A stretch of DNA of 43,820 bases from Desulfomonilaceae bacterium (lineage in GTDB: Bacteria; Desulfobacterota; Desulfomonilia; Desulfomonilales; Desulfomonilaceae): assembly GCA_031082285.1 (NCBI GenBank), contig JAVHLK010000033.1, positions 1-43,820 of the forward strand, in the 5' to 3' direction. The notes under the pieces were generated by a model. It had not been told where the DNA came from, did no database searches, and saw nothing but the letters and a program-made list of their open reading frames with translations. This document shows, piece by piece, positions 9,764-42,659 of this stretch. Position numbers and translations under genes: made by a program. The stretch's first letter is position 1; the number at the start of each line of letters is the position of its first letter.

Positions 9764-9826
9764 GTGATTTGAAACCGTACGGCCGTGCTGAGTGAATCTG
9801 CAAGTAAAAGAATCGGAGGAGATTCG

Positions 9827-10963
9827 ATGGAGGGAAAGATAGGTATTATCGGATACTCACTAGTGGGGTTCGACGACGATGTGAAATTGCGAAGTGATGA
9901 AATGGTCTTTCGCGCATCGAAATCGGCCCTGGATGCCGCCGGCATCTCTCGGGATGACTTGGGAACAACAGTCATATCATCGATCGACGCTTATGACGGA
10001 ATCACCATAAGCAACGGCCTCATGGCTCCTGCAGGAGGCGGCTACCAGAAGGACGCCACAAGAATACAAGGGGGCGGAGTGGGTGCTATTTTCTCTGCAT
10101 TCGCCGGCATTCTCTCCAATAGTGCGGACTTTTCTTTAGTAGCAGGAGCCGATGCAGTTCGGTACGACGACGAGGTGGTGAGCAACAGCAGCTATGATGC
10201 TCTTTTTCGGCGTCCAGTGGGCATGTTTAACCTGCCGGGATATGCTCTGGTTGCAACCAGCCTTCTCAAGGAACAGGGCGCCACTGAAAAAGACTTTGCG
10301 TTCGCGGCGGCCAAGAGTTATGAGGCGGCAGCTAAAAATCCTTACTCACATCGCAAGATTGCCGCAACCATTGAGCAAGTGTTGGAATCACCTTATGTGT
10401 TCTGGCCTTTGCGCGAACTGGAAATCGCTCCCATATCCAAGGGAGCCGCAGCGCTTGTCCTGGCTTCAGAAGAGAAGACCAAAGAGCTCGTTAAGGATCC
10501 AATCTGGGTGACAGGGATTGGAGCAGGGAGTAATCAGTACTATGGGAGCTGGTCTGATCTGACCTCTCTCAAAGGACTCAGGGCCGCCGGTAACAGAGCG
10601 TATCGCATGGCGGGGGTCACGGACCCGGAATCGCAAATTCATGTCGCTGAGGTATTTGCACCCTTTGCTCCGTTCGAATGCCCGATCATTGAGGCTCTGG
10701 GGCTTTGCAGGGAGGGAGAATCCTGGAAAATGCTTCGGGATGGGATCACATCCTCGGGGGGCGCTAAGCCGATAAACCCGTCCGGTGGAACAGTAGGTAC
10801 CAATCCCCCGAGTTGCGGAGGCTTTTATCGCACGATTCAGGCCGCAATGTATCTCACCGAAAACTCCAATGTCGGGCGAGCTGTGGTACAGGACAGTGAC
10901 ATAAACCTCGGGTTTTTCGGTGAAACCTACCACGTGGCCGTCCTGGAGAGAGGAGGAGTCTAA
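9827..10963 (+). CDS. Thiolase-fold protein without Cys or His catalytic residues (triad 1, first member)
   Basis: This is an SCP2/archaeal-type thiolase-superfamily protein of 378 residues. I start it at the ATG at 9827, which has GGAGGA 6 nt upstream, not at the ATG at 9785. The overall fold marks are there: SALDAAG near the N-terminus, NPYSHRK, INPSGG. The nucleophile loop reads RIQGGGVGAI (about 79-88) with Gly in place of Cys. The GHP motif reads GTNP with Asn at about 326. The NEAF-like segment is EVFAPFAPFE, and the C-terminal thiolase glycine motif is degraded to FGETYH. Classical thiolysis by this chain alone is therefore unlikely. It sits 2 bp upstream of the second thiolase and may form a heteromer with it and the DUF35 protein. 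Confidence 0.88.
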   Translation: MEGKIGIIGYSLVGFDDDVKLRSDEMVFRASKSALDAAGISRDDLGTTVISSIDAYDGITISNGLMAPAGGGYQKDATRIQGGGVGAIFSAFAGILSNSADFSLVAGADAVRYDDEVVSNSSYDALFRRPVGMFNLPGYALVATSLLKEQGATEKDFAFAAAKSYEAAAKNPYSHRKIAATIEQVLESPYVFWPLRELEIAPISKGAAALVLASEEKTKELVKDPIWVTGIGAGSNQYYGSWSDLTSLKGLRAAGNRAYRMAGVTDPESQIHVAEVFAPFAPFECPIIEALGLCREGESWKMLRDGITSSGGAKPINPSGGTVGTNPPSCGGFYRTIQAAMYLTENSNVGRAVVQDSDINLGFFGETYHVAVLERGGV

Positions 10964-10965
10964 TC

Positions 10966-12123
10966 GTGAAACACAGAGTGGCCATCATAAGTGTAGGAAA
11001 CACGGAGTATACATCGCTTCGTCGAGAAACACGGTCCAAAGCGGAGTTGGCTTTCGCTGCAATCAAAGAAGCTCTGGACGAAGTGAGAATATCCATTGAG
11101 GACATCGACGCGTGTGTGTTCACCAGTGTCGATGGGTTTGAAGGTAATGTGAGACCGGCACGGGTGTTGGAGTCTTTTGGTCAAGCCCACAATGTCCCGT
11201 TGATCGACGTGAACACCGGAGGCAGCGCGGGAGGCAGCGGCGTAAAAGAGGCTGTTCACTTGATCTCGGCCGGCATCTACGAACTGGTGCTCGTCTACGG
11301 CTCACCCACCTTCAACGAGGTTGTGGACAACCAACAAGTTTTGAACACTGCGTCTCCGCCAATCTTCGAAAAGCCTTTCGGACTGGGGGCTGCTCATATG
11401 GGCTCCCTGTACGGTGCCAGGTACATGCGGGAATACAATTTGACCGCAAGGGAGTTGGCACAGGTGGCTGCCAAGAACCATAAGGCCGCAGTCAGCAATC
11501 CTTTTGCTCACATCAGAGCCGGATATACTACCGAGGAAGTGCTCAACTCTCCCATGGTAGCGTGGCCTCTCCACCTGTACGAGATCTGCCCCGTCTCATC
11601 CGGAGCGGTAGCCATGCTTTTCGCATCCGAGGAAAAAGCTAAAGAACTGTGCGATACCCCGGTATGGGTTGAGGCCATGAGCAGCATAGCCGACACCTTT
11701 CTCAGCGGGTACAAGGTGTACAAGGATTTTGAGAACCTCAAGATTCTGGCGCAACGCATCTATAAAGAAGTGGGAATAAAGAAACCGCGTGAAGAACTCG
11801 ACGTGGTTGAGATCTTCAACCCCTTTGCTCCATTTGAGTTGCTTGCGTACGAGGCCCTGGGCTTCTGTGAAGAAGGCCAAGGGGTGAACCTCATGAAAGA
11901 GGGGGCCACAGAGATAGACGGGGACATACCATGCAATCCGTCCGGCGGCGTCTTGTGCACCAATTCCGGAATCTCGGCTTCAGTCACCCGCCATGCGGAA
12001 GTTGCTTTGCAGCTTATGGGCAAGGCGGAAGGTCGACAGGTCAAGTCTCCGGAGAGGGGGCTTGCCCACTCCTGGGGCGGTAACGACGGACAATTTCACA
12101 CGGTCGCGATTCTTTCAAGATAG
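10966..12123 (+). CDS. Thiolase-fold protein with Gly replacing the nucleophilic Cys (triad 1, second member)
   Basis: This 385-residue protein begins at a GTG with AGGAGGAG 7 nt upstream, immediately after the stop of the first member. The loop that holds the nucleophile reads NTGGSAGG, with Gly at about residue 85 where the paralogue at 19484 has Cys (TCGSTG). CTNS replaces GHP, with Asn at about 333. It keeps EIFNPFAPFE and a C-terminal LAHSWGG motif. Compared with the first member it has more of the canonical thiolase landmarks, and the same is true of the second member in each of the other triads. The likely role is the substrate-binding or catalytic half of a DUF35-dependent C-C bond enzyme; the chemistry is unknown. 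Confidence 0.88.
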   Translation: MKHRVAIISVGNTEYTSLRRETRSKAELAFAAIKEALDEVRISIEDIDACVFTSVDGFEGNVRPARVLESFGQAHNVPLIDVNTGGSAGGSGVKEAVHLISAGIYELVLVYGSPTFNEVVDNQQVLNTASPPIFEKPFGLGAAHMGSLYGARYMREYNLTARELAQVAAKNHKAAVSNPFAHIRAGYTTEEVLNSPMVAWPLHLYEICPVSSGAVAMLFASEEKAKELCDTPVWVEAMSSIADTFLSGYKVYKDFENLKILAQRIYKEVGIKKPREELDVVEIFNPFAPFELLAYEALGFCEEGQGVNLMKEGATEIDGDIPCNPSGGVLCTNSGISASVTRHAEVALQLMGKAEGRQVKSPERGLAHSWGGNDGQFHTVAILSR

Positions 12124-12134
12124 GAGGCTGTAAA

Positions 12135-12596
12135 ATGGCAAGCACCGAGTTCATGAACAAAGAATACAATATGCACCTGGACTTCAGCGTATCGTTGGGA
12201 CCCGCATACACCAAGTGGATGAAGGCCCTAGGGGAGAAGAAGATCCTGGCCAACAAGTGCTCGAAATGTGGCAGGCACTTTGTTCCTGCAAAACCTTTCT
12301 GCGAAATCTGCTTCGAGCCTATTGACGAGTGGATTGAAACTGACGGTGAGGGTATCGTCGAGTCCTTCACCATCGGATATGCCAAGTTCCGCAATTTGCC
12401 TGATCCACCGTACGTTATCGGCGTGATACGCGTGGGACCGTCGGCAGTGTCCATGGTCCACTGGATTGCCGGCTTTCCGTACGACAAGCCGGAAGACATT
12501 CCGGACAAGATCCAAATCGGCATGAAGGTGAAGCCCGTTTGGGCCGAGGAGCGAAAGGGAGACCTTCTCGACATTCGGTACTTCGAGCCGGCCTAA
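12135..12596 (+). CDS. DUF35 Zn-ribbon/OB-fold protein (triad 1)
   Basis: This 153-residue protein has an N-terminal helix, a rubredoxin-like Zn ribbon and a C-terminal OB fold. The four zinc ligands are seen as CSKC and CEIC, separated by ten residues. Proteins of this family (BbsA, archaeal DUF35, the ChsH2 C-terminal domain) bind thiolase-superfamily partners and help hold the CoA moiety. The Shine-Dalgarno AGGAGG (12122-12127) overlaps the stop codon of the upstream thiolase-fold gene, so the two are translationally linked. It is the last gene of the first block; a hairpin and a gap of about 250 bp follow. Confidence 0.92.
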   Translation: MASTEFMNKEYNMHLDFSVSLGPAYTKWMKALGEKKILANKCSKCGRHFVPAKPFCEICFEPIDEWIETDGEGIVESFTIGYAKFRNLPDPPYVIGVIRVGPSAVSMVHWIAGFPYDKPEDIPDKIQIGMKVKPVWAEERKGDLLDIRYFEPA

Positions 12597-18074: not shown

Positions 18075-18242
18075 GACTTCCGCCGAGTCGGTGTCCACAC
18101 GGTCCTCATATTCCAAGAATCCTTCACCGCGAGCGAAGGTTCGCCTCAGCACTTAACCTGCCACTATAATAGACTTATGTGAGCCATGAAGATTCCGGGG
18201 AAGAGAAACTCGTCGCCCCACCCGGGAGTCTTCTCACCCGAT

Positions 18243-18258
18243 TGGCACGACAATTGCT
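18243..18258 (+). promoter_or_regulatory. Sigma-54 (RpoN) promoter of the thiolase/DUF35/MaoC operon
   Basis: TGGCACGACAATTGCT matches the -24/-12 consensus TGGCACGnnnnTTGCW at every fixed base, with GG (18244-18245) and GC (18256-18257) separated by exactly 10 bp. Transcription should begin near 18268-18270, leaving a leader of about 60 nt before the ATG at 18332. The upstream in-frame ATG at 18179 lies before this promoter, so it would not be on the transcript. Confidence 0.88.
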
Positions 18259-18331
18259 TTGCGATGAGTCACTCTACCAAAGACGACTACGTCAACCCTT
18301 TCAGACAGCTCACATAAGAGAGAGAGAAAAG

Positions 18332-19471
18332 ATGAGCCCACGGGTAGCCATTGTTGATTTTGTTCAAACTGAACACGGCGGGCACCTGCACGAGAACGTT
18401 CAGGAACTGACCTTTGGGGTGGTCAGGAAACTTATGGATCGCGTCGGTATAGACCGATCGGAAATCGGGACAATGATTTCGTCCTCTGCAGACTACTGGC
18501 AAGGCATCAGCTGCTCCAACAGCTACTATTATGACTCCGCGGGAGGAAATTTAAAGAGCGGGTCCAAGGTCGGCGAAGATTCGGTTTTCACGGTAATCTA
18601 CGGAATGATGCGAATCCTTTCCGGCCACTACAGGACTGCACTGTTGGTGGCCGTTACCAAGTGTTCGGAGTGCCCGTCGGAACACACTCTCAGCAATTTG
18701 TGTGCGGATCCGTTTTTTCACCGGCCCGTCGGTATTAACGGCGTTGCCGTGGCCGGTTTACAGGCGCGGCAATACCTTGAACGCCATTCTCCACCAACTC
18801 ACGCGGCAGCTCAGGTGGTTGTGAAGAACCGTTCCAACGCGGCGAAAAACCCTTATGCACATGTGAGGAGCACGGTGACTGTGGACGAGGTCTTGTCTTC
18901 GCCTACCGTCGCGGCTCCCCTGAGGAAGCTGGACGTTCCCGTCACAAGTGACGGGGCGTGCGCTCTGCTGTTGGCCGAAGAGGGGACCGCCCGCGATCTT
19001 TGCGACGATCCCGTGTTCATTGAAGGAGTCGGCTGGAACGTCGACCGATCCTTGGTGGGTGACCGTGATCTTCGGCGGGGCTCCTTGCACAAGGCGTCCG
19101 CAATGGCCTATGGGAAGGCCGGAATTAGAGACCCCGGCAAGGAGATAGATGTTGCCGAAATCTCCGAAACAAGCTCTTATCACGAAATTCTATGGTCTGA
19201 GGGACTGGGTTTGTGCGGACCAGGGGAAGGTTGGCGGCTGGCGACCGAGGGGCTCTCTTCCCTTGAAGGGACGTTACCCATCAACCCGTCCGGTGGTCTC
19301 TTCGGGGCAAATCCGCAGGTGGCCAGAGGGCTTGTGCGAGTGGGTGAAGCCTATTTGCAGGTGCTGGGAGAGGCAGGAGATCATCAGGTACCAAACGTCC
19401 GTAAAGCTCTGGCCCACAGTGTACACGGTCTGGGCGGACAATCCCATTCCGTCGTAATCCTGGGACATTAA
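18332..19471 (+). CDS. Thiolase-fold protein with Asp at the nucleophile site (triad 2, first member)
   Basis: This 379-residue thiolase-superfamily protein starts at the ATG at 18332 behind a GA-rich ribosome site, downstream of the sigma-54 promoter. Fold marks include NPYAHVRSTVTVDEVL, INPSGGLFGANP and LAHSVHGLGG. The nucleophile loop reads VGEDSVF with Asp at about 83 instead of Cys. The GHP position is ANP, with Asn at about 327. The NEAF-like segment is fully diverged (EISETSSYHE). Together with the protein at 21740, which also has ED in the loop, it forms a distinct first-member class. It is probably a structural or repurposed subunit of a heteromer with the protein at 19484. Confidence 0.88.
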   Translation: MSPRVAIVDFVQTEHGGHLHENVQELTFGVVRKLMDRVGIDRSEIGTMISSSADYWQGISCSNSYYYDSAGGNLKSGSKVGEDSVFTVIYGMMRILSGHYRTALLVAVTKCSECPSEHTLSNLCADPFFHRPVGINGVAVAGLQARQYLERHSPPTHAAAQVVVKNRSNAAKNPYAHVRSTVTVDEVLSSPTVAAPLRKLDVPVTSDGACALLLAEEGTARDLCDDPVFIEGVGWNVDRSLVGDRDLRRGSLHKASAMAYGKAGIRDPGKEIDVAEISETSSYHEILWSEGLGLCGPGEGWRLATEGLSSLEGTLPINPSGGLFGANPQVARGLVRVGEAYLQVLGEAGDHQVPNVRKALAHSVHGLGGQSHSVVILGH

Positions 19472-19483
19472 AGGTAGGCACCC

Positions 19484-20650
19484 ATGGCTCAAGCAGTTGC
19501 CATCGTTGGCACGGGACAAACAGAATGTGGCAAGAGGTCTGATGTTTCATATCCGGAGCTGGTTCATGAAGCAGTTACGAGGGCATTTGAAGACGCAGGT
19601 ATAGGGCCGGAAGACATTGACGCGGTGGTGGCGGGCTCCATGCCGCCCGCCATGGAAGGTGTGAATAATCCTCATCTTTACTTGGCAGGCGCCATGGGCG
19701 CATACGGCAAACCTCTTATGCGGACCGCGACGTGCGGTTCTACGGGGATCTCTCTTGCCCACACGGGATTCTATCATGTTGCTTCGGGCATGTTTGACAC
19801 GGTGCTGGTTGTGGGCGCGGAAAAAATGAACGAAGGCGATCCCCAGGGCACCATGGCTACCGTGGCGGATCCCTTCTTTCAGCGACCCTTTCTTGCAGGC
19901 GCACCCGGCATTTTCTCTCTTCAGAGCAACGAGTGGGCGCACCGGTACGGCATTGAAGAAAAGAGGGTCAGAATGGCGGCGGCTGAGATATCCGTCCGGA
20001 ACCATAATGACGCGCTGCGTAATCCGTACGCGCATATCAGGATACGGACCACCATTGAAGACGTCCTCACCGCCCGCATAATAGCCTATCCGGTTCGACT
20101 CTTGGATGTGTGTCCCGCTTCCGACGGTGCGTGTGCGGTTATCATGGCCTCCCAGGAGAAAGCCGGAAAGTTGGGTCGGAATCAAGCCTGGATCAAAGGA
20201 GTCGGCTATTGTGGCGAGCAGGCCTTTTTTGGCGAAGGCGACAAAGTGGTCTGGAAGTCCGCTATCAATGCGGCCAAATCTGCTTACGATCAGGCAGGTA
20301 TTTCCAATCCGCTCAAGCAATTGGACGTGGCCGAAGTGTATAACCCATTCACCTTCCAGGAGATGCTCTTTTATGAGTGCTTCGGGTTCTGCGATTTCGG
20401 TAAAGGGTGCGAGCTGGTGGAGCAGGGTGTCGTAATGCCCGGAGGTGAACTTCCTTGCGATCCATCGGGTGGAGTCCTCTGCACGAACCCCATCGGCGCC
20501 ACGGGGCTGCAAAGGGTTGCCGAAGTGGTGCTCCAAGTGACCGGACGGGCCGGCGATAGGCAGGTTCCCGGAGCCAAAACAGGCCTGGCTCATGCGATGG
20601 GTGGGCTGGATCAATTCAACGGGATCATGATCATATCAAACGAACTCTAG
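19484..20650 (+). CDS. Thiolase-fold protein retaining the nucleophilic Cys (triad 2, second member)
   Basis: This 388-residue protein is the only paired thiolase here that keeps the N-terminal Cys (TATCGSTG, C84). The GHP His is nevertheless Asn (CTNPIGATG, N335). EVYNPFTFQE places a Tyr at about 286, and LAHAMGG is present near the end. It could form an acyl-enzyme through C84, but proton transfer would need a different residue from the usual His. It lies 12 bp after the first member and 20 bp before its DUF35 gene, so it is cotranscribed from the sigma-54 promoter. Nearest known relatives by pattern are DUF35-dependent thiolases such as BbsB. Confidence 0.9.
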   Translation: MAQAVAIVGTGQTECGKRSDVSYPELVHEAVTRAFEDAGIGPEDIDAVVAGSMPPAMEGVNNPHLYLAGAMGAYGKPLMRTATCGSTGISLAHTGFYHVASGMFDTVLVVGAEKMNEGDPQGTMATVADPFFQRPFLAGAPGIFSLQSNEWAHRYGIEEKRVRMAAAEISVRNHNDALRNPYAHIRIRTTIEDVLTARIIAYPVRLLDVCPASDGACAVIMASQEKAGKLGRNQAWIKGVGYCGEQAFFGEGDKVVWKSAINAAKSAYDQAGISNPLKQLDVAEVYNPFTFQEMLFYECFGFCDFGKGCELVEQGVVMPGGELPCDPSGGVLCTNPIGATGLQRVAEVVLQVTGRAGDRQVPGAKTGLAHAMGGLDQFNGIMIISNEL

Positions 20651-20670
20651 GGCAGGGGAAGGGGATATCA

Positions 20671-21135
20671 ATGGCTGAAGAATCGAGGATACTTACCGGG
20701 TACGTTTCTCTACCGTATAAATGGGCCATGGGCCCCGCGACCACTCGTTTCTACGAGGAATTCAGGAAGAAACGGATTATGGGATCCCGCTGTGGAAAAT
20801 GTAATCGGATCCTCGTTCCTGCCCGCAGCTTTTGTTCCGACTGTTTCGTGGAAACCGACGAGTGGGTCGAGGTCTCGCAGGAAGGTTCAATCAGAACGTG
20901 GGTGCTCATCAACTTTGCATATGAAGGTCAACCAAAGGAGCCGCCCTACATATTGGCAATCCTAGATCTGGATGGAGCGGATGTGGGGCTCCCCCACTTT
21001 GTGGGAGGCTTCGAGATGAAGGATCTTGAGACCGTGGAAGAAAAGGTCCGCATCGGCGGCCGGGTCAAAGCGGTCTGGAAAGAAAACCGAGAAGGCTACA
21101 TCCTGGATATCGACTACTTCGAGCCCATTGATTGA
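20671..21135 (+). CDS. DUF35 Zn-ribbon/OB-fold protein (triad 2)
   Basis: This 154-residue protein has the same architecture as the one at 12135: an N-terminal helical stretch, zinc ligands CGKC and CSDC ten residues apart, then an OB fold ending DIDYFEPID. The purine-rich AGGGGAAGGGG precedes the ATG. It is predicted to dock on the thiolase pair encoded directly upstream and to contribute to CoA binding. The MaoC gene follows after 117 bp that hold no other gene. Confidence 0.92.
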   Translation: MAEESRILTGYVSLPYKWAMGPATTRFYEEFRKKRIMGSRCGKCNRILVPARSFCSDCFVETDEWVEVSQEGSIRTWVLINFAYEGQPKEPPYILAILDLDGADVGLPHFVGGFEMKDLETVEEKVRIGGRVKAVWKENREGYILDIDYFEPID

Positions 21136-21739: not shown

Positions 21740-22924
21740 ATGGTTATGGAGAATCGAGTCTGCATAGTTGGTCTTGGTGTTGTGGAGCCGGGCGGAAACA
21801 CGCGCGGTGTGGCGCATAAGGAACTTCTTTTCCACGCAACAAGACGGGCGCTGGATGACGCGGGAATTGAACGGGAACTCATAGGCGGCGCCATTACGGC
21901 ATCGTCCGATTTCACTGAGGGCAGGAGCCTATCCAACCAGTACACGCTTGATTCCATAGGCGGCGTGATGAAGCCGTGCGATCTCCGGCTGGCGGAAGAT
22001 GGTATGCATGCACTTTTTGCCGGGTACATGGAAGTCATGGTGGATCCGGGGCTCTTGATGGTTGTCGCCGCTGTGCAGAAGCCTTCGGAGCGGGTCGGCA
22101 GAAGAAACGGTTTTCACAAGATCCTATCGGCCTGTCTGGATCCGATATACAACCGGCCCATATGCAATACCGTTCCGCACGCTGAGAGCCTGGAAGCCGT
22201 GTTTGGGGCGATGGATGCGAGGGCTTATATGGAGCGCTCCCGAGTGACCGAAGAGTTGTTGGCCCGGGTTGCCGTCAAGAATATCAACAACGCGGCAGCG
22301 GCTTCAGGAGAGCCGGCGACCGCCGTGGAAGACGTCCTTGCTTCATCCGAACTCGCTTGGCCCCTGCGGGACCTCACAATGGCCAGAGAGAAAGACGCGG
22401 CATGCACGCTCATTCTCACTTCCGAGAAGAACGCAGGAAAGCTGAGAAAGGAACCTGTATTCATAAGCGGCGTGGGATGGTCCACCGAAGGAAGTCATTT
22501 GGCGGCGCGGTCTTACGGCATGAGTCCGGATACGCAGAAGGCAGCTCATCAGGCCTACCGGATGGCGGGAATCCGGCGCCCTGAGAAGGAGATCGACCTT
22601 GCGGAAGTCAGTGATTGGTACGCTCATCGAGAACTGATTCACGTGGAAGCCCTGGGGCTCTGTGATCCTGGTGAAACCGTCTTGCGAATCGAAGACGGAG
22701 GCTTTGATCGTGAAGGTCCCATTCCCGTAAACGTATCCGGAGGGCTTCTCGGGAAAGGAAACTCGTTGATCGTTTCGGGTCTGCTCCGTGTTGCCGAGGT
22801 TGCCCGTCGGATTCGAGGCGATGCCGTCGATGTAACTTCTCGGAAGGTATGCGTCGGGCTGGCCCATAGCTGGGGCGGCTTCATTTCGCCGACGGCCGGG
22901 GTGGCGGTATTGAGCAAATGGTAG
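21740..22924 (+). CDS. Thiolase-fold protein with Asp at the nucleophile site (triad 3, first member)
   Basis: This is the most degraded thiolase-fold protein of the window, 394 residues long. The nucleophile loop reads RLAEDGMHAL with Asp at about 87. The GHP motif is GKGNS with Asn at about 341. The NEAF-like segment is EVSDWYAHRE, but LAHSWGG is kept near the C-terminus. The start is ATG at 21740 (TTGGAG ahead), with an alternative ATG two codons later. It has the same first-member position, length and ED loop as the protein at 18332. It is unlikely to carry out thiolysis by itself; a structural or new catalytic role in a heteromer is more likely. Confidence 0.86.
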   Translation: MVMENRVCIVGLGVVEPGGNTRGVAHKELLFHATRRALDDAGIERELIGGAITASSDFTEGRSLSNQYTLDSIGGVMKPCDLRLAEDGMHALFAGYMEVMVDPGLLMVVAAVQKPSERVGRRNGFHKILSACLDPIYNRPICNTVPHAESLEAVFGAMDARAYMERSRVTEELLARVAVKNINNAAAASGEPATAVEDVLASSELAWPLRDLTMAREKDAACTLILTSEKNAGKLRKEPVFISGVGWSTEGSHLAARSYGMSPDTQKAAHQAYRMAGIRRPEKEIDLAEVSDWYAHRELIHVEALGLCDPGETVLRIEDGGFDREGPIPVNVSGGLLGKGNSLIVSGLLRVAEVARRIRGDAVDVTSRKVCVGLAHSWGGFISPTAGVAVLSKW

Positions 22925-22980
22925 CGAGAAAGGGCGCCGGTGCGCCGAGAAACGTTCCTTGCGAAAAGAAGGGATAGAAC

Positions 22981-24147
22981 ATGGCCCGGAAAGTAGCCAT
23001 TGTGGGCGTAGGTATGCAGAAGTTTGAATTCTGCAAAGTAGAGACAATCGAGGAAATGGTTTTTGACGTTGCGAGAAATGCTCTGGAAGACGCTCGGCTA
23101 AGTAAGGATGACATCGACGCGGTGGTGACGGGTTCGGCTGTGGACGCCTTTTGCGGAATCGTTAACTCGGACAAGGTTGCCACTGACGGTGCAGGCGGTT
23201 TTCTCAAACCAACAATGCGAAACAGTACCAGCGGTTCTTCCGCAGTATCGACGCCGATTCTTGGTTACAACCATGTAGCTTCCGGAATGTACGACATTGT
23301 CATGGTAATCTGCTACGAGAAGATGAGTGAAAATGCTTCGGCACAGGCTGTCTTCAACACCGTGTACGACGAAGCCTACGTTCGGCCCATAGGTCTGAAC
23401 GTGCCCATTCAGTGCGGCCTGGAAGCCCGAGCCTATTTGCACCGCTATGGGCTGACCGAACGCCAGATGGCCAAAGTATCGGTTAAGAATCGCGGGAACG
23501 CGATATCCAATCCCTACGCTCAGTTGCCGATGAAGCTGACGGTGGACGATGTCATGGCTTCGCCGTATTTGTCGTGGCCGGTGAAACTCCTAGACACTTC
23601 GCCTGTTACGGACGGAGCGCGAGCGGTGATCCTGGCGTCCGAGGACGTGGCTCGTGAACTTACGGACTCCCCGGTGTGGATTCGGGGTACTGGTCGCGGC
23701 GCCGACTCGGTGTGGTTCATGGGCAGAGCGAATCCCGACCTGGGGAGACTTGACTATGCGTATCTGGCAGCCCGGCAGGCTTACGAAATGGCCGGCATAA
23801 AAGACCCCGCTGTCGAGATCGATTACGCAGAAGTCTATGACCCTTTCACTTTCAAGGAGATGCAACACTGTGAAGCTCTGGGCCTCTGTCCCGAGGGAGG
23901 AGCCGGAAGGATGATAGATGAGGGCGTCTCTTGGAAAGACGGCGCCCTCCCCGTTAATGCGTCCGGCGGACTTCAGGGAGAAGGAAACCCCATAGGAGCG
24001 GGGATGTCCAGGCTCAACTGGTGCTATCTCCAAATACAAGGCAAAGCCGGCGATTGTCAGGTCTCCAAAGACGTGAACACTGCAGTATGCAATGCCTGGG
24101 GCGGCATGTACCAGTACAACGCGGTCATGGTTATAGGCCGGGACTAA
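22981..24147 (+). CDS. Thiolase-fold protein with Ser replacing the nucleophilic Cys (triad 3, second member)
   Basis: This 388-residue protein has the same length as the triad 2 second member, with an AAGGGAT ribosome site. The loop reads NSTSGSSA, with Ser at about 84 exactly where C84 stands in the paralogue at 19484. GHP is GNP (Asn at about 336). It keeps EVYDPFTFKE with its Tyr, and the C-terminal motif is NAWGGMYQY. A Cys-to-Ser change usually removes thiolase activity, so this triad may have no thiol nucleophile at all. That makes retro-aldol or Claisen-type chemistry without an acyl-enzyme worth considering. Confidence 0.88.
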   Translation: MARKVAIVGVGMQKFEFCKVETIEEMVFDVARNALEDARLSKDDIDAVVTGSAVDAFCGIVNSDKVATDGAGGFLKPTMRNSTSGSSAVSTPILGYNHVASGMYDIVMVICYEKMSENASAQAVFNTVYDEAYVRPIGLNVPIQCGLEARAYLHRYGLTERQMAKVSVKNRGNAISNPYAQLPMKLTVDDVMASPYLSWPVKLLDTSPVTDGARAVILASEDVARELTDSPVWIRGTGRGADSVWFMGRANPDLGRLDYAYLAARQAYEMAGIKDPAVEIDYAEVYDPFTFKEMQHCEALGLCPEGGAGRMIDEGVSWKDGALPVNASGGLQGEGNPIGAGMSRLNWCYLQIQGKAGDCQVSKDVNTAVCNAWGGMYQYNAVMVIGRD

Positions 24148-24196
24148 CCAGCGGTTCCGGTGAGTTCGGTGGAAGCTGATCTTGTGGGAGTTAATG

Positions 24197-24658
24197 ATGA
24201 GTAAGAAGAAACCTGAGATGACAATCGGCGGGACGATTCAAGTGGACTACGAATGGTCCGTTGGAAACGCCGGGGAACGATTCTTCACGGAGATCAAGGA
24301 CCATAAGCGAATCATGGGCGCCCGCTGTCGCACGTGCGGTCGGGTCATGGTTCCTCCAAGAATATTCTGTGAAGAATGCTTCGTCGACGCCATAGAGTGG
24401 GTGGAAGTGGAACCGAAAGGAACACTGGTGACCTTTGGCGACTGTTATTTTTCCACCGACGGGAAAAGGCTCGACGAGCCATGGATCCTGGGCATTGTTC
24501 GGCTCAATGGGGCCGATGGAGGATTGATCCACTTCATCAAGGAAGCCAAAGCCGAGGATCTGAAAATCGGCATGCCCATGGAGATAGTGTTCAGCGATGA
24601 ACGCAAGGGCCATATCCTCGACATTTCACATTTTCGACCGGTCAAAGAATCGGAGTAG
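24197..24658 (+). CDS. DUF35 Zn-ribbon/OB-fold protein (triad 3)
   Basis: This is the third DUF35 protein, 153 residues from the ATG at 24197; GGGAG at 24186-24190 is better spaced for it than for the adjoining ATG at 24194. The zinc ligands are CRTC and CEEC, ten residues apart, and the OB fold ends DISHFRPVKE. It completes the third triad, and its stop lies 12 bp before the livG of transporter cassette B. The catabolic and transport genes are therefore probably on one transcript. Confidence 0.92.
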   Translation: MSKKKPEMTIGGTIQVDYEWSVGNAGERFFTEIKDHKRIMGARCRTCGRVMVPPRIFCEECFVDAIEWVEVEPKGTLVTFGDCYFSTDGKRLDEPWILGIVRLNGADGGLIHFIKEAKAEDLKIGMPMEIVFSDERKGHILDISHFRPVKESE

Positions 24659-35864: not shown

Positions 35865-37859
35865 ATGGAAATAGGATCGGTGAAGGAAGGCGACCTACTA
35901 TGGCAACCGTCGGAAGAAGTTAAGAACGCTGCAAATGTCTCTCAGTACATGAATTGGCTGAAGGATGAGAAGGGCCGGCACTTCAAGACCTATGAGGACC
36001 TCTGGGAGTGGTCTGTAACAAACATCGAAGACTTCTGGGAGTCTATTTGGCATTTCTATGGGACGAAAGCGTCCTCCCCGTACTCCACGGTTATCACTGA
36101 AAGAAGCATGCCGGGTGCAGTCTGGTTCAAGGACGCAAAACTCAACTATACCGAGCAGGTTTTTCGAAACTTGCGCTCTGAGACTCCTGCGCTAAAGTTT
36201 CAGTCAGAGATAAGCCCGTACGTGGAGATCTCCTGGGAGGAGCTACACCAACAAGTGGTTGCCATAGCCCTGTCCTTGCGCAAGATGGGCGTTGGGCCGG
36301 GAGATCGTGTTGTCGCCTATTTGCCGAACATACCTCAAACGCTCGTCGCGTTTCTTGCCTGTGCATCCATTGGGGCTACCTGGTCGAGCTGTTCCCCCGA
36401 TTTTGGTGCACGCAGCGTGTTGGATCGCTTCCAACAGATTGAGCCCAAAGTGTTGTTCGGCGTGGACGGGTATCAGTACGGCGGCAGAAAGTTCGACTGC
36501 CGGCCTATAATGATGAAGCTTCAGCAAGCCATGCCTACCTTAAAGCATACGGTGATCGTGCCATACTTGAATCCGGAGGGAACTCCGGAGGGCTTCAGGC
36601 CGGGGCACATCTGGGATGACCTGTTGAACGAGACGGGAGACCTGGAATACGAGCAGGTTGACTTCAACCATCCCCTCTGGGTGGTCTATTCATCAGGAAC
36701 TACGGGGCTGCCAAAACCCCTTGTCCACGGCCATGGAGGAATCATTTTGGAGCTGCAAAAATTCCTGGGGCTCCATGTGAATATCAAGAAAGGGGAGACA
36801 CTCTTCTGGTTCAGTACCACCGGATGGGTTATGTGGAACATTCTACAGGCCGGCCTGATGCTGGGGGCTACGGCGGTTCTCTACGACGGCAGCCCCGGCT
36901 ATCCGGACATGGATGTGCTGTGGGAGCTTGCCGAGAAAGCAAAGATGAACGTCTTCGGCACAAGTGCCGCCTTTATTACCGCCTGCATGAACGAGGGCAT
37001 GGAACCCGGTAAGAAGCATGATCTGAGCGCATTGAAGGCGGTTGGTTCCACTGGCTCTCCTCTCTCGCCCGCAGGGTTCAAATGGGTCTACGATTCCATC
37101 AAGGACGACATCCTGCTGGGGTCCGTCAGCGGAGGAACTGATCCGTGTACCGCTTTCCTGGGATGCTGTCCGCTGCTTCCGGTACGGGCCGGAGAGCTCC
37201 AGTGTAGATGCCTGGGAGTCAGGGCGGAAGCCCTGGACGATAGTGGCCGAGAGCTTGTCAACGAGGTAGGCGAGCTTGTGATTAGCGAGCCCATGCCCTC
37301 CATGCCGCTGTACCTTTGGAACGATCCAGACAATAAACGGTACATTGAAAGCTACTTTGAGAAGTATCCGGGTAAATGGAGACATGGGGATTGGGTCAAG
37401 ATAACTCCATCGGGAAGCTGTGTGGTTCTGGGGCGTTCCGACTCAACACTCAAACGCATGGGTGTCCGCATGGGCAGTAGCGAGATCTATGGAGTTGTTG
37501 ATGAGATCCCGGAAGTAGTGGAAAGCCTCATAGTCGGTTTTGAGGGGCCGGACGGCAGATACCTCATGCCGTTGTTTGTAGCGCTTCAACCCGGTTTGGA
37601 ATTAGACGATAGCCTGAAAAAAAAGATAGCAGCCAAAATCCGCAGTTCCTTGTCGCCCAGGCACGTACCTGATGAGATCTACGTCGTACCTGAGATTCCC
37701 AAGACTCTCAACATGAAGAAGCTTGAGGTCCCGGTCAAGAAGATCCTCTCGGGCCTTCCCCCGGAAACATCAGTCAACCTGGACTCAATGAGTAACCCGG
37801 AGTCGCTCGACTTCTTTATCGACATGGCTAAGGAAATGTACGGCAGTAAGCAGGTCTGA
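35865..37859 (+). CDS. Acetoacetyl-CoA synthetase-like ligase
   Basis: This 664-residue ANL ligase has the long N-terminal region typical of acetoacetate-CoA ligases (LLWQPSEEVKNAANVSQYM, then PGAVWFKDAKLNYTE). The P-loop YSSGTTGLPKPLVHGHGG lies at about 275, SVSGGTDPCTAFLG follows, and WRHGDWVKITPSG is at about 505. The C-terminal segment PKTLNMKKLEVPVKKIL contains the catalytic Lys region. The family makes acetoacetyl-CoA from acetoacetate, ATP and CoA; some members use other short 3-oxo or branched acids. AAGGGAG precedes the ATG. A canonical thiolase gene five genes on could cleave the product to acetyl-CoA. Confidence 0.9.
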   Translation: MEIGSVKEGDLLWQPSEEVKNAANVSQYMNWLKDEKGRHFKTYEDLWEWSVTNIEDFWESIWHFYGTKASSPYSTVITERSMPGAVWFKDAKLNYTEQVFRNLRSETPALKFQSEISPYVEISWEELHQQVVAIALSLRKMGVGPGDRVVAYLPNIPQTLVAFLACASIGATWSSCSPDFGARSVLDRFQQIEPKVLFGVDGYQYGGRKFDCRPIMMKLQQAMPTLKHTVIVPYLNPEGTPEGFRPGHIWDDLLNETGDLEYEQVDFNHPLWVVYSSGTTGLPKPLVHGHGGIILELQKFLGLHVNIKKGETLFWFSTTGWVMWNILQAGLMLGATAVLYDGSPGYPDMDVLWELAEKAKMNVFGTSAAFITACMNEGMEPGKKHDLSALKAVGSTGSPLSPAGFKWVYDSIKDDILLGSVSGGTDPCTAFLGCCPLLPVRAGELQCRCLGVRAEALDDSGRELVNEVGELVISEPMPSMPLYLWNDPDNKRYIESYFEKYPGKWRHGDWVKITPSGSCVVLGRSDSTLKRMGVRMGSSEIYGVVDEIPEVVESLIVGFEGPDGRYLMPLFVALQPGLELDDSLKKKIAAKIRSSLSPRHVPDEIYVVPEIPKTLNMKKLEVPVKKILSGLPPETSVNLDSMSNPESLDFFIDMAKEMYGSKQV

Positions 37860-37957: not shown

Positions 37958-39463
37958 ATGGGATTGTACGATATTACTGTATACAACCTCCTTGGGCGAA
38001 ACGCCCGAGTTAATGGTGATGGAACGGCTCTCGTCTTTGGTGAGAACACGATCTCGCACGAACAGCTCCTGGAAATAGTTGATAGGCTTGCAGCCGGACT
38101 CAGGTCGGCCGGTGTCGGGCGAGGCTCTCGTATCGGCATTTTGGCCAAGAACTGTCCCGAGTACGTATATCTCTACGGAGCTGCCGCCAAACTCGGGGCG
38201 GTCGTGGTTCCGATAAACTGGCGTCTCACGCCGAGTGAAATCGGTTACATCCTCGCCGATGCCCTGCCGGCGGTTCTTCTTGTAGAGGCGGAATTTAAGC
38301 CGCTTCTAAATTTTCCGGAGGCCTCATCAAGTATTCCAAAACAATGTCTCAGTTTAGGGGATGGGGACGGGGCGTTCAAGGGGTTACAGCAGATCCTGGA
38401 CGGGCCTGCCCCAACTGGAGATGCAGCCGGCTTTGACGACGGGTACGTGATGATTTACACTGCAGCGGTCTCAGGAAAACCGCGCGGCGCAGTGCTCACG
38501 CATAAAGGGCTCTTCTTGGCGTCCATGGAACTGGTCAGCCAATGGGGGCTTACAGCAGAAGACACTAATCTGGCGGTATTACCTCTCTTCCATGTAGCAG
38601 GGATACTGACACTAATGTCGGCTATTGAGGCAGGTGGAACGAACGTGATTCTTCGGGACTTCGACCCGGAAACGGCAGTTAAGTGCATATGGGAATCGGG
38701 CGTGAGCTTCTTCATCTCTTTTCCACCGATGCTCAGTTCGCTGTTGGATAGAGCAGAGGCTGAATCCGTTGACATCACGAGCATCAGGCATCTGCTCGGT
38801 ATCGACAATCCGGATACTATTGACCGTTTCGAGAAAATGGCCGGAGCGACCTTTTGGTCCACCTATGGACAAACTGAAACCTCTGGAATTGCATCTTTTG
38901 CACCGTACAAGGATCAGCCCGGCTCTGCTGGTCTGCCGATTCGGCCGGTCGAGGTACAAGTAGTCGATGAATACGACAACATCTTGCCCCCGGGGAAATC
39001 AGGAGAAATAGTCGTTCGAGGGCCGACAATCTTTCAAGGCTACTGGAACCTCCCTACTGAAACAGCTCACACATTTCGTGCTGGTTGGCACCATACGGGT
39101 GACCTGGGACGTTTCAGCGAAGATGGCTACCTATGGTTCGAGGGTCGGTTATCGGAGAAGGAGTTGATCAAATCTGGGGGCGAAAACGTATATCCGGCCG
39201 AGGTGGAAAAGGCCGTATTGGAACATCCCATAGTAGAGGAAGCCTGTGTGATAGGCGTCCCCGACGAACAATGGGGCGAGACCATAAAGGCCGTCTGTGT
39301 GCTGAAAAGTGGCGAAACGGTTAAGGAATCGGAGTTAATCGAATTCGTCGCGTCGAGAATCGCTCGGTACAAGAAGCCGAAACGCGTGGTTTTCGTCACC
39401 AAGTTACCCAAGAAGCCGGACGGTGGGGTAGATCGAGCAAAAGTAAAGGGCCTGTACGGATGA
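37958..39463 (+). CDS. Acyl-CoA ligase with unusual P-loop and altered A10 motif
   Basis: This 501-residue ligase starts at the ATG at 37958 behind GGAGGA; the frame opens earlier without a ribosome site. The P-loop reads YTAAVSGKPRGAVLTH at about 167 where most relatives have YTSGTTGxPKGA. The other core motifs are regular: STYGQTETSG, WHHTGDLGRFSEDGY and SGGENVYPAEVE. The A10 motif reads PKKPDGGVDRAK, so the usual Lys of GK is not at its place. It may still form an acyl-CoA, perhaps more slowly or by a variant mechanism. The stop overlaps the next ATG (ATGA at 39460), which couples it to the small unknown protein. Confidence 0.88.
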   Translation: MGLYDITVYNLLGRNARVNGDGTALVFGENTISHEQLLEIVDRLAAGLRSAGVGRGSRIGILAKNCPEYVYLYGAAAKLGAVVVPINWRLTPSEIGYILADALPAVLLVEAEFKPLLNFPEASSSIPKQCLSLGDGDGAFKGLQQILDGPAPTGDAAGFDDGYVMIYTAAVSGKPRGAVLTHKGLFLASMELVSQWGLTAEDTNLAVLPLFHVAGILTLMSAIEAGGTNVILRDFDPETAVKCIWESGVSFFISFPPMLSSLLDRAEAESVDITSIRHLLGIDNPDTIDRFEKMAGATFWSTYGQTETSGIASFAPYKDQPGSAGLPIRPVEVQVVDEYDNILPPGKSGEIVVRGPTIFQGYWNLPTETAHTFRAGWHHTGDLGRFSEDGYLWFEGRLSEKELIKSGGENVYPAEVEKAVLEHPIVEEACVIGVPDEQWGETIKAVCVLKSGETVKESELIEFVASRIARYKKPKRVVFVTKLPKKPDGGVDRAKVKGLYG

Positions 39464-39828
39464 AATGGCGAAATCGAGTACTGAGTCACGAGGCAGGACA
39501 GATGCCCAGAGAATATGTTCATGAATTGAAGTCGGAGATTCGTTCAATTTCCGGGTCCTACGAGCTTGAGTATGAGCTGGCCGTGGAAATGGACCGGAAA
39601 ACGGTAATCTGCCTTATCGGAACCGGGATCGTGGACAACTCATGCTGCGGCGTGGGTGGTTGCAGATTCGCACTGGTTCCCGGATATGTGCTGTCCCACA
39701 AGATTTACCGAAACGATGAAGGCTTATGGGTATCTCAGGTGGAGTCCATTAGTGACGAAGAGTTGCGCGGCAAGATAACAAACATCCTCAAGAAACAGGA
39801 ACTGGTTCAACAAGTTCGATTTTTGTGA
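39460..39828 (+). CDS. Small protein of unknown function with CCGVGGC motif
   Basis: I do not recognise this protein. It has 122 residues if it starts at the ATG overlapping the upstream ligase stop, or 108 from the ATG at 39502, which has purine-rich sequence ahead. The centre has a hydrophobic strand-like run followed by a Cys-rich turn (ICLIGTGIVDNSCCGVGGCRF), then a soluble charged tail with a helix (DEELRGKITNILKKQE). The three Cys could bind a metal or cluster. There is no signal peptide. Its tight coupling suggests a partner role with the ligase or the fusion protein that follows. Confidence 0.7.
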   Translation: MKWRNRVLSHEAGQMPREYVHELKSEIRSISGSYELEYELAVEMDRKTVICLIGTGIVDNSCCGVGGCRFALVPGYVLSHKIYRNDEGLWVSQVESISDEELRGKITNILKKQELVQQVRFL

Positions 39829-39873: not shown

Positions 39874-41322
39874 ATGGAAGGAATCGTCTCTTACGGAGGC
39901 TACATACCGAGACTAAGGATAGATCGAAAACTCATCTACCAAGCAGTTGGCTGGCTCAATCCAGCCACATTTATGAAGGGCGAAAAGGCCGTCGCGAATT
40001 TTGATGAAGACAGCCTGACAATGGGCGTTGCAGCGGGAATAGAATGCCTCAAGGGCGTTGATCGCGCCGGCGTTGATGCACTGTACTTCGCGTGCACCAC
40101 GCCGCCGTACGCGGAGCGACAGAACGCCGAGATTGCAGCCACGGCCCTGGATTTGAAAAGCCGGATCAGAAGTGCGGATTTTACGGGAACGCTGAAGGCG
40201 GGAACGACAGCCCTACTCTCTGCTTTAGACGCCGTTAAGGCCGGCACAATGAATTCGGTGCTTGTATGCTCAGCCGATCAACGCATGGGAAAGCCCGGTA
40301 GCGCTCAAGAAGAGATCTTTGGAGACGGAGCCGCCGCGATCCTGATGGGCTCGGAAAACGTGACAGCGCAATTCCTCGGATCATTCTCGGTCTCGTACGA
40401 CTTTTCGGACCATTGGAGGAGCTCCGGATCAATTTTCGACCGCCAGTGGGAAGACCGTTTCATCAGGGATGTAGGGTACACCAAGTTCGTGGTGGAGGTC
40501 TTGCAAGGACTGGCCATCGAATGTGGCATCTCAGCCGATCAAATCACAAAAGTGATCTATCCCTGTCTTTATGCCGCGGATTTCAAAAAAATCGCCCGGA
40601 CCTTGAAGATTTCAGACCAACAGATCGTCGAGCCGCTCCTAGGACAGATAGGCTTTACCGGCACTCCGGATCCGTTCATCCATCTGGCAATGGCTCTGGA
40701 CCAGTCAAAACCCGGAGATCGAATCGCTGTGGTCGGTTTCGGAGCCGGCGCGGATGCAGTTCTGTTTGAGGTCACGGAGAACATAGAAAAGTCTAGGGGA
40801 AGTCGCAGAAGTGTTGGACACTATCTAGAGAACAAGAGACAGTTGGACGGCTACGAGAAAATGATCTCTTTCCGGAACTTGCTTCCCATGGAAAAAGGTA
40901 TCAGGGGAGAAAGTATTCCGCCGACGGCAATGTCGGCACTGTGGAGAAATCGGGATCAGGTTCTGGGGCTTTACGGTTCCCAGTGCCGGGCTTGCGGAAC
41001 GCCGCAGTTTCCGGCGCAGCGGATTTGTGTCAAGCCGAACTGCGGGGCGGTTGACCAGATGGTCCCGTACCGTTTCTCGGACAAGAAGGGAACCCTGTTC
41101 ACGTTTACGGGTGACTACCTTGCGTTCTGCACCAACCCTCCGTCGATCTACGGAGTCGTGGATTTTGAAGGCGGCGGGCGATATCAATTCGACCTGACCG
41201 ACGTGGAGCTAGAGAATGTCAAGGTAAGCATGCCTCTAGAGATGAGCTTCAGAAAGAAGTACCTGGATGAAAGAGCAGGTATTCACGGCTACTTCTGGAA
41301 GGCGGTTCCCGCAATGTCATAG
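39874..41322 (+). CDS. HMG-CoA-synthase-fold protein fused to a DUF35 Zn-ribbon/OB domain, catalytic residues missing
   Basis: This 482-residue fusion has an archaeal-type HMG-CoA synthase fold at residues 1 to about 310, then a Zn ribbon (CRAC at 371-374, CVKPNC at 385-390) and an OB domain. The synthase part keeps fold landmarks such as GVAAGIECL, AGTTALLSALD and FGDGAAAILMG. By alignment from memory with archaeal enzymes, the catalytic Cys is L107 (TLKAGT), the Glu of GSES is T75 (CTTPPYA), and the His of FHQPN is P230 (YPCL). All three catalytic residues thus appear lost. AGGAGGA precedes the ATG. A canonical thiolase follows, which suggests a scaffold that links the thiolase with CoA substrates. 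Confidence 0.88.
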   Translation: MEGIVSYGGYIPRLRIDRKLIYQAVGWLNPATFMKGEKAVANFDEDSLTMGVAAGIECLKGVDRAGVDALYFACTTPPYAERQNAEIAATALDLKSRIRSADFTGTLKAGTTALLSALDAVKAGTMNSVLVCSADQRMGKPGSAQEEIFGDGAAAILMGSENVTAQFLGSFSVSYDFSDHWRSSGSIFDRQWEDRFIRDVGYTKFVVEVLQGLAIECGISADQITKVIYPCLYAADFKKIARTLKISDQQIVEPLLGQIGFTGTPDPFIHLAMALDQSKPGDRIAVVGFGAGADAVLFEVTENIEKSRGSRRSVGHYLENKRQLDGYEKMISFRNLLPMEKGIRGESIPPTAMSALWRNRDQVLGLYGSQCRACGTPQFPAQRICVKPNCGAVDQMVPYRFSDKKGTLFTFTGDYLAFCTNPPSIYGVVDFEGGGRYQFDLTDVELENVKVSMPLEMSFRKKYLDERAGIHGYFWKAVPAMS

Positions 41323-41462
41323 TTCCTGGGGTTCCCAAGACGCCGCTCATGCACGGCCCTTCCACGCAGCCGCGGAGTAGCCGGCATCAGGCCCTAATGA
41401 TCAGTTCGGGCTTACTCGATCGAGACCGTTGCAGCCCGCCGCAACACGAGGAGGTTCACATA

Positions 41463-42659
41463 ATGGCTGAAGGCATCAAAGATAAGGTTGCCATCATAGG
41501 TATGGGATGCACGAAATTTGGTGAGCGCTGGGAAGCCGGCGTCGAAGATCTCATAGTCGAAGCATTTATGGAGGCCCTGGAGGACGCAGGTATTGAAAAG
41601 AAAGACCTGGGGGCTGCCTGGTTCGGCTCATGTTACGATGAAATCGGTTCCGGAAAGACTGCTATGCCGCTGAGTCTGACACTAAAGCTCCCATTCCTGC
41701 CTGTAACGAGGGTTGAGAACTACTGCGCAACCGGCACGGAGGCTCTGCGTGGAGCAGTGTATGCAGTTGCGTCGGGAGCCTACGACATCTGTCTCGCGCT
41801 TGGGGCTGAGAAGCTCAAGGACACCGGTTTTGGGGGGCTGCCCGAATTTGCCGGCCAGCTCGGAACCAAGAATCGTCTCATTCTTCCCACTCTGAGCGCG
41901 CCTGGTGGTTTCGCCATGATGGCAACGCGATATTTCTCCAAGTACGGGCTGAGCCCTGAGGAGGGAAAGGAGATATTGGCAATGATCTCCGCCAAAAGTC
42001 ATCAGAATGGCTCCAAGAATCCAAAGGCCCACCTTCGCAGGGAGATTAGCGTGGATCAGGTAATGAAAGCCCCCATGGTCGCATGGCCTCTCGGTCTGTT
42101 CGACTGCTGCGGAGTCAGCGACGGAGCCGCTGCAGCCATCGTATGCAGGGCCGACATGGCCAAGAGCTTTCGGCCGGATCCCGTGTACGTCAAGTCTATG
42201 CAGATAGCGGTAAGCTCCGGAGAGGAGATGATGTATACGGATTGGGACGCTAGTCATGTACAGAGCGCCACTGTTTGTGCGGCCCGGGCTTACGAAGAAG
42301 CGGGGATCAAGAACCCGAGAGAAGAGATCAGTATGATGGAAGTGCATGACTGCTTCTCCATTACCGAGCTGGTGGCGTACGAAGATCTGCGAATATCCGA
42401 GCGAGGGAAAGCGGGAAACGATGTGCGTGATGGGTTCTTCAACCTGGATGGACGGATTCCCTGCCAGCCCGATGGAGGGCTGAAGTGCTTCGGGCATCCC
42501 ATTGGAGCGTCAGGCTTGAGAATGATGTACGAAATGTACAAACAGCTCCAGGGCAAGGCCGGAGAAAGGCAGATTGCAGACCCCAGGTTGGGACTCACTC
42601 ACAACATGGGCGGATTCCCCAGTATGAACCTCATAAGCATGGCAATCGTCGGGCTTTAG
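41463..42659 (+). CDS. Canonical SCP2/archaeal-type thiolase
   Basis: This 398-residue thiolase starts at the ATG at 41463 behind GAGGAGG; the longer frame from 41349 covers the intergenic gap. Its catalytic set is intact: nucleophile in ENYCATGTEAL (C88), FGHPIGASG (H345) and LTHNMGG near the C-terminus. It probably carries out acetoacetyl-CoA or 3-ketoacyl-CoA thiolysis, or the reverse condensation. It lies next to the HMG-CoA-synthase-fold/DUF35 fusion, as in the archaeal complex where DUF35 links thiolase and HMG-CoA synthase. It is a useful control for the six degenerate thiolase-fold proteins of the triads. Confidence 0.94.
   Translation: MAEGIKDKVAIIGMGCTKFGERWEAGVEDLIVEAFMEALEDAGIEKKDLGAAWFGSCYDEIGSGKTAMPLSLTLKLPFLPVTRVENYCATGTEALRGAVYAVASGAYDICLALGAEKLKDTGFGGLPEFAGQLGTKNRLILPTLSAPGGFAMMATRYFSKYGLSPEEGKEILAMISAKSHQNGSKNPKAHLRREISVDQVMKAPMVAWPLGLFDCCGVSDGAAAAIVCRADMAKSFRPDPVYVKSMQIAVSSGEEMMYTDWDASHVQSATVCAARAYEEAGIKNPREEISMMEVHDCFSITELVAYEDLRISERGKAGNDVRDGFFNLDGRIPCQPDGGLKCFGHPIGASGLRMMYEMYKQLQGKAGERQIADPRLGLTHNMGGFPSMNLISMAIVGL

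Follow-up and report, generated by a model that had tools for sequence, protein, structure and literature searches.

The window analysed here, a 43,820-nucleotide stretch of contig JAVHLK010000033.1 from a Desulfomonilaceae bacterium, encodes on its forward strand a 482-amino-acid (aa) protein (39874..41322) in which the fold of 3-hydroxy-3-methylglutaryl coenzyme A (HMG-CoA) synthase (HMGCS), devoid of its catalytic triad, is fused to a DUF35 domain. The gene is followed by that of an intact 398-aa thiolase (41463..42659, forward strand). We propose that the fusion is probably a structural partner of this thiolase and not the enzyme suggested by its family name. By analogy with PhlACB, the 2,4-diacetylphloroglucinol acyltransferase, it seems likely that both proteins form a complex in which the dead synthase would serve a CoA-dependent beta-ketothiolase as scaffold and as partner at the CoA site. 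This thiolase would probably act in the beta-oxidation of unusual acyl-CoAs.

The domain organization of the fusion was defined from its open reading frame (ORF), Pfam and NCBIfam matches and a structure model. Residues 1 to ~340 correspond to the HMGCS fold and match ACP_syn_III domains in Pfam, and residues ~357-480 comprise the DUF35 zinc ribbon and OB fold, matched by zf-ChsH2 and OB_ChsH2_C. Against the curated HMGCS models of NCBIfam, the protein scored 205 bits for NF003274 and 169 bits for TIGR00748, under the respective cut-offs of 244 and 353 bits. The structure model reached a predicted local distance difference test score (pLDDT) of 86.4 and a predicted template modelling score (pTM) of 0.90, suggesting that the two domains have a defined arrangement. 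Its best match in the PDB was the Methanothermococcus HMGCS chain 6esq_I (Z 47.3, root mean square deviation 1.8 A, 336 residues), followed by PhlA (Z 43-45) and MucA (Z 41.7), and Foldseek lists the same families first. The predicted fold is therefore of the HMGCS/FabH-like, thiolase-superfamily type, as an earlier sequence-only reading of the window had supposed. The zinc ribbon (C371, C374, C385 and C390; 40984..41043, forward strand) is intact, and each of its cysteines is present in 118 or 119 of 119 distinct related fusions. This set derives from 134 ORFs and includes the window's own fusion and a second copy from its genome (C281); ORFs shorter than 430 aa, ORFs scoring 250 bits or less and identical copies were left out.

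Next, the positions of the catalytic triad were located by alignment to 6esq_I. As seen on the forward strand, Thr75 (codon 40096..40098) replaces the catalytic Glu (Glu82 in the Methanothermococcus enzyme), Leu107 (40192..40194) replaces the catalytic Cys (Cys114), and Pro230 (40561..40563) replaces the catalytic His. Not a single Glu, Cys or His of the triad is kept in any of the 119 fusions; Thr occupies position 75 in 112 of them, Leu or Ile position 107 in 83, and Pro position 230 in 98. Because these fusions had been found by similarity to the window's own, further loci (designated by L numbers) were fetched with an HMGCS family model. The triad was absent from all 29 loci fetched in this way in the window's phylum, some of which overlap with the set of 119 fusions. 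All three residues were also absent from L174 and L175, from five of five stand-alone relatives (L156, L173, L181, L182 and L189), and from seven of seven archaeal fused loci (L237-L243, of which L243 repeats L066). The true HMGCS used as positive controls (L183-L186) kept Glu, Cys and His in four of four cases, as did the archaeal HMGCS controls L206-L235 (30/30), which are the 30 best matches of the archaeal sample and hence the likeliest to keep the triad.

The three stretches around these positions hold no conserved Glu, Cys or His that might stand in, apart from the partially conserved C231; an acidic residue at 81 and a His at 237 are variable and lie outside the motif positions. The sequence alignment, together with the fold match of the model, thus argues that no triad persists at shifted positions. 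The apparent absence of all three residues, the intact zinc ribbon and the intact adjoining thiolase had been noted by the sequence-only reading, and the analysis confirmed them. A reverse-order archaeal fusion (L236:6183-7697), in which the DUF35 zinc ribbon comes first and is followed by an HMGCS with intact Glu, Cys and His and an adjoining thiolase, indicates that fusion and triad loss are separate events.

The partner thiolase belongs to the NF004810/PRK06157 family (644 bits against NF004810, with a cut-off of 403). Its ATG start at 41463 lies behind a gaggagg ribosome-binding site, and its N-terminus agrees with those of its relatives. The residues expected of a CoA thiolase are present, namely the nucleophilic Cys88, His295 and Cys297 of the HDCF motif, and the GHP His345. 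Partner thiolase ORFs shorter than 380 aa being left out, all four residues are kept in 100 of the 100 that were compared. Among solved sequences, the nearest to the partner thiolase is the archaeal CoA thiolase 6esq_A (219 bits), and PhlC scores 90-95 bits. Every fusion whose available downstream sequence exceeds 219 bases (107 of 107) has a same-strand thiolase directly downstream; 106 of these fall within the gap limit, and the remaining one, L035, has stop-to-stop frames that overlap by 249 bases. For the other 12 of the 119, in which no thiolase was seen, the downstream sequence extends over at most 219 bases, and the longer flanks of two of them (L018, seen as L050, and L020, seen as L051) do show one. 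When neighbours were clustered across 101 loci, many with short flanks, a thiolase was found near the fusion in 87 and the next commonest cluster in 25. The window's genome carries three copies of the fusion, each followed by a thiolase, one copy being visible only from residue 321 at a contig start. Moreover, the distances among fusions correlate with those among their partner thiolases (r 0.84 over 101 pairs, with 0 of 500 permutations as high), a correlation due in part to shared descent. The thiolase is the more conserved of the two, with a median pairwise identity of 64.5% against 50.1% for the fusion.

To place the fusion among known systems, its closest solved sequences were considered: PhlA (9skh and 5m3k, the best), the archaeal HMGCS 6esq_I, and 9vbo_A of MucABC. 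In PhlACB (PpATase, CsATase), the HMGCS-fold subunit lacks Glu and Cys, the DUF35 subunit carries a Cys4 zinc ribbon, and the thiolase-fold subunit is catalytic with its Cys88 (PMC6392133). At the three triad positions we find Cys, Gly and Gln in PhlA, in agreement with the published replacement of Glu by Cys83 and of Cys by Gly115 (PMC6392133); MucA has Cys, Glu and Gln there. The window likewise combines a triad-less HMGCS-fold part, a Cys4 DUF35 and an adjoining thiolase-fold gene with a catalytic Cys. PhlACB, however, consists of three separate proteins, whereas the A and B subunits form one chain, the 482-aa ORF, in the window; among the relatives they are separate in L173 and L180-L182. 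It also differs in that the window partner carries CoA-thiolase residues and in that the genomic context is mostly catabolic. MucABC of Streptococcus macacae (PDB 9vbo/9vbt) shares the triad-less HMGCS-fold subunit, but its genes are separate, MucA has 23% identity to the fusion over the aligned fold, and its proposed role is biosynthetic tetramate acetylation (PMC10161427). The archaeal thiolase/HMGCS/DUF35 complex has the same three components, the best fold match to the fusion and the thiolase nearest to the window partner. Its HMGCS is nevertheless active (Glu82/Cys114), its subunits are separate and it serves the mevalonate pathway (PMC6392133), whereas the window's fusion is triad-less and the genome yields no HMG-CoA reductase match. 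The comparison with archaeal substrate channelling made by the sequence-only reading was apt, although PhlA and MucA, closer and already triad-less, are better comparators. In BbsAB, Sal and Ltp2, DUF35 also clamps a thiolase-fold catalyst, but there is no synthase-fold partner (PMC12329534).

Since PhlA and MucA already lack the triad, the idea of a dead synthase has precedent. Catalysis by PhlACB involves residues of PhlC alone, although expression of the entire operon is required (PMC6392133). On this basis, we take the fusion to be the half that lacks catalytic function in a complex acting as a CoA-dependent beta-ketothiolase. The synthase half would keep its fold and probably its subunit contacts but be unable to form the acetyl-Cys intermediate or HMG-CoA. 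The DUF35 half would connect the synthase half with the adjoining thiolase, so that a hetero-oligomer of the PhlACB type results, likely with four fusion chains and four thiolases. The thiolase would be the sole catalyst, with Cys88 carrying the acyl group and His295, Cys297 and His345 doing the acid-base work of a CoA-dependent Claisen cleavage or condensation. The synthase/DUF35 part would shape and close a shared CoA/acyl cavity, and without it the complex would not be folded and active. Such a complex would most likely serve the thiolytic step of beta-oxidation on unusual (branched, long or cyclic) acyl-CoAs. The sequence-only reading had offered the dead fold as a scaffold for the thiolase or as a binder of a CoA intermediate; given the triad loss, the intact DUF35, the thiolase neighbour and the assembly of the trio in the solved PhlACB and archaeal complexes (PMC6392133, PMC12329534), this remains the best reading of the fusion, the role itself being assigned by analogy with those trios.

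Several observations weigh against this assignment. In the synthase half, T75, D151, W192, E193 and R198 are near-invariant and family-specific, and a passive scaffold would not obviously need them. The correlation between fusion and thiolase distances would also arise from shared descent in one operon. The thiolase lies upstream and not downstream in the distant archaeal fusions L237-L239, and it is also upstream in L236 and in the three-gene loci L180-L182. A read-through chain of fusion plus thiolase (L077, with 18 paired relatives) was modelled with a pLDDT of 72.5 and a pTM of 0.73, without a negative control; these values are only moderate, albeit compatible with a defined contact. Elsewhere, DUF35 and a thiolase fold function together in systems that lack any HMGCS-fold partner (PMC12329534). 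Of the 36 loci with full flanks, 11 show no neighbour of the beta-oxidation type in the gene clusters.

The near-invariant residues also keep open the alternative of a neofunctionalised pocket, in which T75, Y-P-C231, D151 and W192-E193...R198 would form a second binding or catalytic site that receives or primes the beta-ketoacyl-CoA and passes it on to the thiolase. D151, E193 and R198 are present in 118, 119 and 116 of the 119 fusions, respectively, and differ from the residues of the four HMGCS, PhlA and MucA references; T75 and C231 are conserved as well, the latter in 93 fusions and missing from 26, so that it is not universal. These positions are known from sequence only and may lie in the core or at interfaces, and acyl transfer in PhlACB uses no PhlA residues (PMC6392133). 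We regard such a pocket as rather unlikely. If it were true, a rebuilt CoA/acyl-binding or priming site (T75, YPC231, D151, E193 and R198) would allow the thiolase to handle substrates that are impossible for it alone.

A biosynthetic C-acyltransferase of the PhlACB/MucABC type, moving an acyl group to a non-CoA acceptor in the making of a natural product, would account for the same trio and triad loss, which are found in PhlACB and MucABC (9vbo), and PhlACB requires no CoA (PMC6392133). Nevertheless, the partner keeps CoA-thiolase residues and resembles the archaeal CoA thiolase more than it does PhlC, genes of acyl-CoA catabolism surround the fusion in the window, and acyl-CoA dehydrogenase, ligase, hydratase or related genes lie within 6 kb in 25 of the 36 loci with full flanks. 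Three copies in one genome also suit catabolism better, and we therefore consider this use improbable. It is more improbable still that fusion and thiolase are independent and neighbours only through a shared pathway, given the same adjacency and order in 107 of 107 cases, a next commonest neighbour cluster in only 25 of 101 loci, and the solved complexes formed by homologous trios (PMC6392133, PMC12329534). Finally, an active HMGCS with displaced catalytic residues was rejected as the least credible option on the alignments, the loci fetched by the family model, the conservation pattern (no triad residue in 119 of 119 fusions and no conserved stand-in but the partial C231) and the absence of an HMG-CoA reductase match, even though HMGCS family models match the fusion, some relatives score above the NF003274 cut-off, and the reverse-order L236 keeps its triad.

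We also analyzed how the fusion is distributed and arranged. Fusion matches were found in 39 of 60 genomes, the window's included, and a relative of the query is encoded in at least 573 stretches, the 80 best of which were retained. Among the matches listed, record titles name Desulfobacteraceae, other Deltaproteobacteria, Chloroflexi, Actinomycetota, Bacillota, Nitrospirae and several archaea, and the nearest named relative is a Desulfobacteraceae metagenome-assembled genome with 71% identity. A lone decayed gene was rejected as an explanation, as the frame is open and conserved in many genomes. Three layouts were observed: separate thiolase, HMGCS-like and DUF35 genes (L173 and L180-L182), the two genes seen in the window, and a longer fusion. 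A simple route to fusion is offered by L180 and L182, in which a single stop codon separates an HMGCS-like frame from a DUF35 frame in the same phase. C-terminal extension to more than 800 aa was seen in 16 of the 119 ORFs. The only extended ORF that was scanned, L034:1501-4236, encodes a fusion of ~916 aa whose extension consists of SDR and SCP2 domains, and L018, L020, L047, L141 and others have similar lengths. This make-up presumably resembles that of peroxisomal multifunctional enzyme 2, and the extended protein looks like a one-chain beta-oxidation module. A thiolase as the C-terminal extension of the 916-aa homologs was considered and rejected, the scanned one carrying SDR and SCP2; no ORF was found that matches both the fusion and the thiolase. 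The longer fusion, where its flank is seen (L047, L050 and L051), is also followed by a thiolase. Overall, the C-terminal extensions and the acyl-CoA gene neighbours point to beta-oxidation.

A quick tree of 66 HMGCS domains, with support from a likelihood test only and some long rows, placed the triad-less proteins, including PhlA and MucA, on one side of a branch (Shimodaira-Hasegawa-like approximate likelihood ratio test, 93) and true HMGCS on the other. This split suits a single loss of the triad. The fusion label needs three changes on the same tree, suggesting that the fusion may not be of one origin. Tentatively, and with little confidence, one may picture a former HMGCS lineage that was fused to DUF35 and spread in bacteria and archaea as the second half of a thiolase cavity, with its pocket rebuilt and SDR and SCP2 domains added in some lineages.

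PhlA already provides an example of an HMGCS fold that is catalytically silent within a thiolase/DUF35 complex, and the paper on SSO2064 noted in 2010 that DUF35 is fused to thiolase-superfamily, SDR and SCP2 domains and called PhlA inactive (PMC2954200). As far as our literature searches go, a large family of fused pseudo-HMGCS/DUF35 proteins with a constant thiolase neighbour was not found described, nor were triad-less members that pass an HMGCS naming cut-off. A sample of 148 genomes from the window's phylum gave 99 NF003274 matches of at least 143 bits; 94 of them lie in open frames of at least 428 aa, which leaves room for a DUF35 fusion, and the triad was absent from all 34 of the 99 that were examined. 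It was kept in L183 and L184, two matches that score lower and represent a different type of HMGCS. The cut-off is exceeded by 14 matches, and the 10 of these that were examined all lack the triad (e.g., L142, L144, L146 and L173). Since triad-less proteins pass this cut-off, automatic HMG-CoA synthase names, and the pathway predictions built on them, would be wrong for such proteins, and PhlA, an apparent exception, becomes something like a rule. With the fusion, the contribution of a dead enzyme to a live one could also be tested cleanly, because the window holds thiolase/DUF35 sets without a dead synthase and because two archaeal genomes (L185 with L133; L186 with L072) hold both live and dead versions.

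At the genome level, no HMG-CoA reductase match was found in the window's genome (99.9% complete, 314 contigs), whereas 5 of 14 control genomes gave one, and Dxr is present; hence there is no evident mevalonate pathway. Acyl-CoA catabolism genes make the window an island of this function, with branched-chain amino acid-type ABC transporters, acyl-CoA ligases, acyl-CoA dehydrogenases, hydratases and three thiolase/DUF35 sets. A named substrate from the anaerobic benzene literature was also considered and rejected, as the available parts of PMC13101534 and PMC13416013 do not mention an HMGCS-like/DUF35 fusion. A search for promoter-like sites between 39400 and 42900 found none, a result that carries little weight at best.

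Directly upstream of the fusion lies the gene of a 122-aa protein with a CCGVGGC motif (39460..39828, forward strand), which has no Pfam match. Counting the window, 7 of 101 loci encode this protein directly 5' of the fusion; a CCG..GC-like motif is conserved among them, and the protein may belong to the fusion/thiolase module. Two genes upstream of it, an acetoacetate-CoA ligase is encoded at 35865-37859 (NF002937, 949 bits), a possible clue to the substrate. The three thiolase/DUF35 sets are thiolase-thiolase-DUF35 trios at 9785-12596, 18179-21135 and 21740-24658. Neither the GHP His nor the HDCF motif is present in any of their six thiolase-fold proteins, and the members at 9785, 18179 and 21740 have 24-26% identity to the intact thiolase, against 31-32% for their pair mates. 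These trios may be Ltp2/Sal-like aldolases or pseudo-thiolase pairs.

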